64,000 nucleotides of DNA, taken from assembly GCA_029265405.1 (NCBI GenBank), contig JAJUJI010000010.1, positions 1-64,000 of the forward strand, in the 5' to 3' direction. Made by a program: the position numbers and the translations under genes. The notes under the pieces are model-generated. The model saw only the letters and a list, made by a program, of their open reading frames with translations. It was not told the DNA's origin and made no database searches. The stretch is from Clostridiales bacterium. GTDB lineage: Bacteria > Bacillota > Clostridia > Oscillospirales > Oscillospiraceae. Below are positions 3,176 through 64,000 of this stretch, one piece after another. Every line of letters begins with the position of its first letter. The first letter of the stretch is position 1.

Positions 3176-3211
3176 AAAAATAAAAACGCCCCGTGAATAA
3201 CACTGAGCGTT
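3176..3211 (-). terminator. Expression-platform terminator of the TPP riboswitch
   Basis: On the minus strand AACGCTCAGTG can pair with CACGGGGCGTT (11 positions, one G-U, one mismatch), followed by TTTTTATTTTT. It lies between the TPP aptamer and the thiT ribosome-binding site, as expected for transcriptional control. Confidence 0.75.
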
Positions 3212-3221
3212 CTCTCAACAA

Positions 3222-3313
3222 AGCATTTCCTACGCTGGCATTATCCAGATCAGGTATAAGGGTTAGAAGCGTCGATTCGCTTCCTCTCAGCCGAGGACAC
3301 TCAGCACCCCGTA
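3222..3313 (-). ncRNA. TPP (THI-box) riboswitch controlling thiT
   Basis: The minus strand carries the conserved TPP elements in order: GGGGTGC, CTGAGA, ACCCTT, ACCTGATCTGGATAATGCCA and GCGTAGGAAA. Binding of thiamine pyrophosphate should favour the terminator that follows and switch thiT off. Confidence 0.97.
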
Positions 3314-3326
3314 TTCATTTTTCAGC

Positions 3327-28945: not shown

Positions 28946-28954
28946 AAACGGCTC

Positions 28955-29118
28955 CACCATTCGTTGAGCTTCAACACTATACGGCGTCAACCGGAAAACG
29001 CGTAACGGCCAGCTGCGCTAAGTAGAACCTTGTTTCGATAATACCTGTTGGCCCATTGGCATCTCTCGATGTTTCCGGGCGGCAGCATGTGTCCGTATAG
29101 TAGCCTCACCTAACGATG
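28955..29118 (-). ncRNA. M-box (ykoK-type) magnesium riboswitch
   Basis: The minus strand carries the conserved M-box sequence: GTTAGGTGAGGC at the 5' end, ACATGCTGCCGCCC, GCCAATGGGCCAACAG, GCAGCTGG, and GCCGTATAGTGTTGAAGCTC at the 3' end. Mg2+ binding should favour the terminator and lower corA expression. Confidence 0.95.
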
Positions 29119-29134
29119 ATACGCTTGCGCTTGC

Positions 29135-61770: not shown

Positions 61771-63438
61771 TTATTTATTATAGCTGTCCTTCAGCGCGAC
61801 GCTGCGGTTGAAGACCAGACTGCCGGGCGCGGAATCGACGCTGTCCACGCAGAAGTAGCCCAGACGCAGGAATTGGAAGCTGGCGGGGGCCTTGGCGTCC
61901 TTTAGGCCGGCCTCCAGCTTGCAGCCCTTGAGTACGGTTAGGGAATTGGGATTTAAAACCGAAAGGAAGCCGCCCTCGGCCCCGTCGGGATTAGGGTCGC
62001 TGAAAAGATTGTCATAGAGCCTGACTTCGGCATCCACGGCCGTTTGGGCGTCCACCCAATGTATGGTTCCGCGCACCTTGCGCCCGTCGGCGGCGTTGCC
62101 GCCGTAGGACAGGGGATCGTATTCGCAGAGGACCTCCGTGACTCTGCCCTCGCCATCCTTTACGCAGCCGGTGCATTTGACTATATAGGCCGATTTGAGG
62201 CGGACCTCGTTTCCGGGAAAGAGGCGGTTGTATTTTTTGGGGGGGACCTCCTCGAAATCCTCGGCCTCTATCCACAGCCGCCTTGAAAAGCTGACCTCGC
62301 GGAAGCCGGCGCCCTCGTTTTCGGGATTGTTTTCCACCTTGAAAAATTCGGTCTTGCCCTCGGGATAATTGGTGACGGTCAGCCTTATGGGCCTCAGTAC
62401 GGCCATGGCGCGGTTGGCGTTGAGGTTAAGGTCCTCGCGCAGACAATGCTCCAGGAAAGCGTAGTCAACTATGCTGTTGACCTTAGATACGCCGTTGCGC
62501 TCATTAAAGCTCAATATGGAGGCCGGGGTATAGCCTCTCCTGCGAAGGCCGCAGAGCGTGGGCATCCTCGGGTCGTCCCAGCCGGAGACATAACCCTCCT
62601 CCACAAGCTGGCGGAGCTTGCGCTTGCTCATGACGGTATAGGTAATATTCAGCCGGGAAAACTCGATCTGGCGCGGCCTGGACGGCGGATCTATGTTTTC
62701 GATGACCCAGTCGTAAAGGGGCCGGTGATCCTCGTATTCAAGGGAGCAGAGGGAATGGGTTATCCCTTCTATCGCGTCCTGTATGGGATGGGCAAAGTCG
62801 TACATCGGGAAAATGCACCATTTTTTTCCGGTGCGGTGATGATCCACATAGCGTATCCTGTACAGCGCCGGGTCGCGCAGATTGAAGTTGCCGCTGGCCA
62901 GGTCTATCTTTGCCCTGAGCGTCATGGAGCCCTCTGGGAATTCGCCGTTCTTCATTCTTTCAAACAGCTCGAGGCTTTCCTCTATAGGCCTGTCGCGGTA
63001 TGGGCTGGTGGCCGGAGTCGTAAGGTCGCCCCGGCGTTCCTTCAGCTCCTCGGGGCTGAGCTGGCATACGTAGGCCAGGCCCTTCTTTATGAGCTTCACC
63101 GCGTAATTGTAGGTTTCCTCAAAATAGTCGGAGCCGTAATGGAAGCGGTCGCCCCAGTCGAAGCCGAGCCAGCGTATGTCCTCCTTTATCGCGTCCACAT
63201 ACTCGGCGTCCTCCCTGACGGGGTTCGTGTCGTCCATCCTGAGGTTGCACAGGCCGCCGTATTTTTTTGCCGTGCCGAAATCTATTATCAGGGCCTTGGC
63301 GTGCCCTATATGCAGGTAGCCGTTCGGTTCGGGAGGGAAGCGGGTGTGAACGGTCATGCCGTGAAAGCGCCCTCCCTCGGCAAGATCCTCGTCTATTAAA
63401 GCTTCAATAAAATTTTTGCCAGCGGAATTTGCATCCAT
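61771..63438 (-). CDS. glnS: Glutaminyl-tRNA synthetase
   Basis: 555-residue class Ib synthetase. HIGH region FPPEPNGYLHIGHAKAL near residue 40 and KMSKS region VMSKRKLRQLV are intact. NLRMDDTNP is a GlnRS landmark, and the C-terminal beta-barrel anticodon-binding domains are complete. Having GlnRS means direct Gln-tRNA charging, although many Bacillota use the GatCAB route. ATG 63438 is fixed by AGGAG 10 nt upstream and the family N-terminus. The open frame upstream runs through a terminator and is not coding. Control appears to be by the attenuator at 63477-63610. Confidence 0.97.
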   Translation of the reverse strand: MDANSAGKNFIEALIDEDLAEGGRFHGMTVHTRFPPEPNGYLHIGHAKALIIDFGTAKKYGGLCNLRMDDTNPVREDAEYVDAIKEDIRWLGFDWGDRFHYGSDYFEETYNYAVKLIKKGLAYVCQLSPEELKERRGDLTTPATSPYRDRPIEESLELFERMKNGEFPEGSMTLRAKIDLASGNFNLRDPALYRIRYVDHHRTGKKWCIFPMYDFAHPIQDAIEGITHSLCSLEYEDHRPLYDWVIENIDPPSRPRQIEFSRLNITYTVMSKRKLRQLVEEGYVSGWDDPRMPTLCGLRRRGYTPASILSFNERNGVSKVNSIVDYAFLEHCLREDLNLNANRAMAVLRPIRLTVTNYPEGKTEFFKVENNPENEGAGFREVSFSRRLWIEAEDFEEVPPKKYNRLFPGNEVRLKSAYIVKCTGCVKDGEGRVTEVLCEYDPLSYGGNAADGRKVRGTIHWVDAQTAVDAEVRLYDNLFSDPNPDGAEGGFLSVLNPNSLTVLKGCKLEAGLKDAKAPASFQFLRLGYFCVDSVDSAPGSLVFNRSVALKDSYNK

Positions 63439-63476: not shown

Positions 63477-63505
63477 AAAAAAGCGGCATGGCCCAGCCAT
63501 ACCGC
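63477..63505 (-). terminator. Attenuator terminator before glnS
   Basis: On the minus strand GCGGTATGGC pairs with GCCATGCCGC (10 bp, one G-U, 3-nt loop) and is followed by six T, 39 nt before the glnS start. Confidence 0.9.
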
Positions 63506-63526
63506 CGCGTTTGTACTAGAACGGAT

Positions 63527-63610
63527 TCAAGGGGCATAAAACGCGCGGCAAGCCAAAGCGCCCGGAAAGACCGGCCGCCGGAGCTGCTGTCGAAAAATCA
63601 TAGCGCGCAT
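63527..63610 (-). CDS. Putative 27-residue glnS leader peptide
   Basis: ATG 63610 to TGA 63527, with AAGGGAGG 7 nt upstream and about 21 nt from the predicted transcription start. The peptide begins MRAMIFRQQLRRPVF; codons 8 and 9 are consecutive CAG (Gln). It is also Arg-rich (5 of 27). The reading frame ends 22 nt before the terminator's 5' arm. No protein homology is expected for such a peptide. Confidence 0.6.
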   Translation of the reverse strand: MRAMIFRQQLRRPVFPGALACRAFYAP

Positions 63611-63638
63611 GCCTTTGCCTCCCTTGATTTATTTATAT

Positions 63639-63668
63639 ATGATATCATGAAAAGACCGTGTTTGTCAA
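63639..63668 (-). promoter_or_regulatory. Sigma-A promoter of glnS
   Basis: TTGACA (63663-63668), 18-bp spacer, TATCAT (63639-63644), reading into the attenuator leader. Confidence 0.82.
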
Positions 63669-63744: not shown

Positions 63745-64000
63745 CAATAAGGCAAAGGCGACGAAGGGGAGCAGTAGACGCCGCTCCGATGCGCAGAGAG
63801 GGAACGGACATGGGCGGGCCGCGGCATTGCGCGGCAGCGCTTGGTCAGGGTGCGAGTTCCCGTGAGGAGGCGTCGAAGTCGCCCCGGAGCCTCGGCCCGA
63901 AAGCGGCTTGCGGCCGCCTGTAGGCGCCGACGGGCAGCTCCCGTTACAGGGCGGAGCCGTCGAAAAGGCGGCGGAGTGATAAAATCGGGTGGTACCGCGG
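63745..64000 (+). ncRNA. T-box riboswitch leader, GUC (valine) specifier, runs off the window
   Basis: Stem I elements AGTA (63773-63776) and AGAGAG, the helix GACGCC/GGCGTC, the specifier segment GAA-GTC (GTC at 63878-63880), and the T-box sequence GGGTGGTACCGCGG at the very end. GUC would be read by tRNA-Val(GAC). The antiterminator TGGT suits an A73 tRNA, as tRNA-Val is. The regulated gene, most likely valS, lies beyond position 64000. The terminator is also outside the window. Confidence 0.9.

Follow-up and report, generated by a model that had tools for sequence, protein, structure and literature searches.

The window analysed here is a stretch of 64,000 nucleotides from a Clostridiales bacterium, and it carries two divergently oriented synthetase genes, glnS on the minus strand and its neighbour valS (TIGR00422). 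The region in front of glnS combines a promoter, a short leader ORF and an intrinsic terminator with further RNA segments that could pair in alternative ways, and the parts concerned are the following:

63639..63668, minus strand: glnS promoter, sigma-70-type, TTGACA-18 nt-TG-TATCAT, matching the consensus at 11 of 12 positions
63618..63624, minus strand: Shine-Dalgarno (SD) AGGGAGG of the leader ORF, about 8 nt 5' of its ATG, from the sequence
63527..63610, minus strand: leader ORF of 27 codons, MRAMIFRQQLRRPVFPGALACRAFYAP and stop, from the sequence, with counterpart ORFs in seven species of genus g11
63584..63592, minus strand: putative control codons 7-9, CGA CAG CAG (Arg-Gln-Gln), invariant in 8/8 species
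63548..63587, minus strand: helix 1:2 (anti-antiterminator hairpin), beginning within the Gln codons, from the fold of the window leader and covariation
63539..63554, minus strand: segment 2, predicted 5' strand of the antiterminator, codons 19-24, pairing with 63512-63495 in folding
63495..63512, minus strand: segment 3, predicted 3' strand of the antiterminator, overlapping the terminator 5' arm, from folding
63477..63506, minus strand: intrinsic terminator, helix 3:4, GGCGGTATGGC TGG GCCATGCCGCT plus T run, -19.3 kcal/mol, stem kept in eight species
63526..63627, minus strand: predicted long-range helix of the SD/start region (about 63627-63605) with the stretch 3' of hairpin 1:2 (about 63545-63526), from the fold without a ribosome
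61771..63438, minus strand: glnS, glutamine--tRNA ligase, 555 aa, TIGR00440 with 713 bits against a cut-off of 426

An earlier note on this DNA had described the promoter, the Shine-Dalgarno, the 27-codon ORF with CAG CAG at codons 8-9 and the terminator, and all of them were found where it placed them. The terminator stem-loop itself covers 63506-63482 and is followed by T's, and 44 nt separate the end of its stem from the glnS start codon. The single tRNA-Gln gene found in the 81% of the genome that was read has the anticodon CTG, which reads CAG and hence fits the CAG CAG control codons. Read in the 5' direction, the glnS frame stays open across the terminator as far as an ATG at 63537, where it overlaps the last part of the leader ORF; the resulting ORF has 588 codons, and this upstream extension is probably a coincidence.

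A scan of 2,008,183 of the 2,484,539 bases of the genome for the succession of promoter, SD-preceded short ORF, terminator and gene yielded 1724 terminators, 223 of them with a gene just 3', and 35 of these also with a promoter 5'. Only three of the 35 promoter-terminator-gene sets had an SD-preceded leader ORF, glnS included, the other two being a 10-codon GTG ORF and an ORF at the site of a T-box match. The glnS leader is the only clear promoter, leader-ORF, terminator and gene set in 2.0 of 2.48 Mb, and its terminator stem-loop type is present in a single copy in 2.0 Mb. The chance of a tandem Gln pair within codons 6-17 is about 0.7%, computed post hoc with the codon usage of the window.

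The window's genus was represented by one genome, and the comparison was therefore drawn from other genera, with the upstream regions of some 190 glnS genes collected from the family and order. Leaders in these regions are mostly short, with a median of about 50 nt from promoter to gene. A screen of the 190 regions for two neighbouring Gln codons within a leader ORF returned the window and two species of genus g11; the other five of the seven g11 species examined, looked up without selection for the Gln pair, had the leader in 5/5. ORF, Gln codons, hairpin and terminator are found directly 5' of glnS in all seven g11 species examined, whose genomes are all incomplete (70-90% complete). The earlier note had named relatives that keep the terminator and have lost the ORF or its Gln codons as the case that speaks against its proposal; this was looked for, and the seven species keep both, at the same codon numbers.

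The g11 leader peptides fall into group A (MLCFTFRQQRPAGI, MTLFCFRQQRPGVN, MTLFVFRQQRPYLLK and MVFCAFRQQRPARI) and group B (MALWMDRQQGGRRQRLPHRA, MTLWMDRQQGGRR and MALWMDRQQGGRRLRLPHRA), to be compared with MRAMIFRQQLRRPVFPGALACRAFYAP in the window. Across the eight species of two genera codons 7-9 are always CGA CAG CAG, and the surrounding codons 2-6 and 10-11 have diverged, with a mean pairwise nucleotide identity of 0.32-0.56. CGA makes up 0.25% of the codons in the window's long ORFs, yet codon 7 (63592-63590) is CGA in 8/8. Concerning the remaining signals, TTGACA lies about 56-60 nt 5' of the leader ATG in 7/7 g11 promoters, and the GG of the leader Shine-Dalgarno is invariant across the eight species. 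A DNA BLAST of the window leader against 400 family genomes gave no other glnS leader among the matches listed, and the homologues surfaced only through the comparison of leader ORFs of glnS genes, not of leader DNA.

The RNA structures are conserved to different degrees. Hairpin 1:2 begins right after the second CAG in g11 and is placed somewhat differently in the window, because the window ORF is longer. Helix 1:2 covaries, with two-sided, compensatory changes at 4/6 counted pairs (alignment A1, eight species). For the two helices together the covariation score in the same alignment reaches 0.279, whereas shuffles average 0.128 and 0/500 score as high; slid controls are 32-41% paired compared with 95.8% for the true alignment. 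The terminator stem, CGGYAUGGC/GCCAURCCG, is present in 8/8 species, with one pair alternating between UA, UG and CG and the rest invariant. The predicted antiterminator 2:3 stands on folding: the model brings it out clearly in the window and in the g11 species L334 and L336, fairly in L332 and L333, and ambiguously in L331, L341 and L335, where ORFs are short and stalled and stop states are not separated. Covariation does not establish this helix; the energy of the segment 2-segment 3 duplex summed over species is reached by 21/500 shuffles, modestly above the shuffled background. Pairing of the SD region with the stretch behind the hairpin is possible in 8/8 species with differing sequences, its summed energy being reached by 11/500 shuffles, and it may hinder re-initiation on the leader.

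The dependence on ribosome position was modelled by folding the window leader in the state before synthesis of the terminator 3' arm, with the ribosome placed codon by codon. When the A site is anywhere in codons 1-17 segment 2 is free and the model favours the antiterminator; once the ribosome has reached about codon 18-19 or the stop, or if there is no ribosome, this helix does not form. Upstream pairing of the terminator arm is about 0.8 for a stall at codons 8-9, 0.13 with no ribosome and 0.00 at the stop. The folding supports the classical stall and stop behaviour that had been anticipated for the three helices, although helix 2:3 turns out longer than described, with 16 pairs and one-base bulges (63554-63539 with 63512-63495) and an energy of about -20 kcal/mol, its inner pairs included. 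The E. coli thrL and pheM leaders, put through the identical procedure as controls, yield ribosome-position curves of the same form. In post hoc comparisons with dinucleotide shuffles, the stall-dependent pairing of the terminator arm is not exceptional when taken by itself (57/500), and the three-state contrast of low without a ribosome, high for a stall at codons 8-9 and low at the stop is reached by 4/500. In the full-length leader the terminator beats the antiterminator (P about 0.98); being the more stable structure once completed, it implies that the switch must be kinetic.

We consider it very likely that glnS is controlled by ribosome-mediated transcription attenuation, its leader sensing charged tRNA-Gln by means of the tandem CAG codons. 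From a presumed transcription start, and with the leader ORF presumably translated, the leader would respond to Gln-tRNA charging as follows. With ample Gln-tRNA the ribosome would traverse the leader ORF, and either segment 2 would be covered or hairpin 1:2 would form again; in both cases the terminator would form and glnS expression would be reduced. A shortage of Gln-tRNA would make the ribosome stall at codons 8-9 and break hairpin 1:2, which would let segment 2 pair with the terminator 5' arm as antiterminator and the polymerase enter glnS. A leader that carries no ribosome would be disposed to termination by hairpin 1:2 together with the SD-region helix.

The predicted structure is by itself not Gln-specific, since in the model the antiterminator is freed by a stall at any of codons 1-17, of which only two are Gln. 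The leader ORF could on this ground sense a general slow-down of translation or the supply of Arg, through the rare codons CGA and CGG, with the Gln codons incidental; the window peptide has 5 Arg in 27 residues, and the rare CGA is invariant at position 7. We regard this as improbable. Conservation is limited to codons 7-9, the further Arg codons vary between the groups, a single Arg weighs little against a Gln pair, and the regulated gene is glnS in 8/8 species. The excess of Arg codons, which had been raised as a caution, is partly accounted for: one of them, the CGA, is invariant together with the Gln pair, and the others are not conserved. A role for this codon within sensing of tRNA-Gln is conceivable, though rather doubtful: the CGA-CAG-CAG triplet might be the sensor unit, in which the rare CGA, probably read by inosine wobble, would pause the ribosome and sensitise the first Gln codon to Gln-tRNA. 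If true, it would be a two-part control-codon design compensating for only two Gln codons.

Synthetases may also bind their own messages, as E. coli ThrRS does with thrS mRNA in autoregulation, and the conserved CGACAGCAG and the GGYAUGGC stem could accordingly be sites for GlnRS rather than control codons. The invariance of CGACAGCAG at the nucleotide level, rare codon included, would suit such a protein site, as would the terminator loop U-CUG, like the tRNA-Gln anticodon loop, in 3/4 group A g11 species. This U-CUG loop, the only type of mimic sought, is absent from L331, group B and the window, and the loops of group B and the window have just 3-4 nt. Moreover, CGACAGCAG lies exactly 18 nt from the ATG in 8/8 species, a spacing needless for a protein site, and the stem ends in a U-tract, all of which makes binding by GlnRS very improbable.

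The leader is patchily distributed. With a covariance model of the eight leaders, strong scores (81-131 bits) among 400 family genomes are limited to those eight, the next-best score being 35 bits, and in 391 genomes drawn from the class the model finds the window only. That the element is a chance ORF before an ordinary unregulated terminator, as might be argued from its absence in the nearest GlnRS relative and in 392/400 family genomes, is scarcely credible given that eight species in two genera conserve its ORF, codons and helices. The GlnRS tree, which includes six g11 species, unites these in a single clade and puts the window in a separate part beside G056; this nearest relative and its congener G138 both lack the glnS leader. 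Beside glnS there is a divergent T-box in the window, in six g11 species and also in the leader-less L092 and L227, hence the gene order probably predates today's distribution of the leader. Several lineages may have lost it, or it may have been transferred; convergence is less likely, because the CGA codon, its position and the terminator sequence are shared. The patchy glnS leader offers a small natural case of leader gain and loss.

Several other candidates were rejected. In other relatives, most terminators on the 5' side of glnS stand ahead of its promoter and so belong to the preceding gene. Two g24 genomes (L089, L090) have a longer promoter-glnS stretch with a small ORF (MHPLIYPPLPAFE in L090), and L090 also a hairpin and T run; they were set aside as leader relatives for having no Gln codons, and the arrangement is absent from three sister species. 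The weaker covariance-model matches in L350 and L351 are terminators whose stems are similar in sequence but which lack CGACAGCAG, and pattern matches in L361 and L362 are starts of longer open frames. As a separate observation, the near-identical stem GGYATGGC/GCCATRCC occurs in terminators elsewhere in other family genomes (L350, L351).

Among known systems, the E. coli pheST operon is the classical case of leader-peptide attenuation of a synthetase gene, with pheM as its leader, and the pheST gene order is seen in E. coli. It shares with the glnS leader a leader peptide containing codons for the synthetase's own amino acid, the anti-antiterminator, antiterminator and terminator, and a similar ribosome-position curve, whereas it differs in its Phe codons, in the genes controlled and in belonging to gammaproteobacteria, with no apparent sequence relation between the two leaders. 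In the trpL and thrL attenuators, too, mutually exclusive helices follow a leader ORF that carries tandem control codons, but these attenuators control biosynthetic operons and not a synthetase.

In bacilli, Naville and Gautheret (2010) predicted His leader peptides for hisZ and hisS*, and stated that they knew of no demonstrated leader-peptide system outside Proteobacteria and Actinobacteria (PMC2965389). Those leaders share with the present one that a leader peptide takes the place of a T-box before a synthetase-type gene of Bacillota, and differ from it in having His codons in front of hisS paralogs of Bacilli, instead of Gln codons in front of glnS in Clostridia (PMC2965389). A computational screen in Shewanella lists a predicted glnS leader motif, with no description beyond that of a tRNA synthetase leader (PMC2659441). 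No glnS or Gln leader peptide was found in the open-access literature searched, a coverage that leaves subscription journals outside, and the Gln/glnS version of leader-peptide attenuation looks undescribed. The novelty proposed in the earlier note accordingly holds for this pairing, and not for leader-peptide attenuation of synthetase genes as such, which is known from pheST and predicted for hisS paralogs in bacilli (PMC2965389). With glutamine and glnS, the few leader-peptide attenuators known at synthetase genes would gain a further member, in Clostridia.

The T-box (RF00230) and the other Rfam models have no match in the glnS leader, and no T-box core was found on the glnS strand in 190 glnS upstream regions. 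Synthetase control in Clostridia is usually by T-boxes. Both devices would raise synthetase expression when tRNA is uncharged, and both work through a terminator and an antiterminator, but the T-box binds the tRNA directly whereas the glnS leader has a conserved ORF. T-box matches near glnS sit on the opposite strand, in the window at valS. The valS T-box (plus strand, 63752-64000 and beyond; L113 about 750-1020) scores 67 bits with the core GGGTGGTACCGCGG present, below the Rfam gathering score of 93, and is thus missed by a default Rfam scan. The glnS-valS intergenic region presumably carries two kinds of tRNA-charging sensor, one translation-based and one tRNA-binding, placed back to back, so that the two strategies could be compared in one cell. 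Elsewhere in the window, an M-box magnesium riboswitch (28949-29124, minus strand) and a TPP riboswitch (3209-3321, minus strand) score above their Rfam gathering scores.
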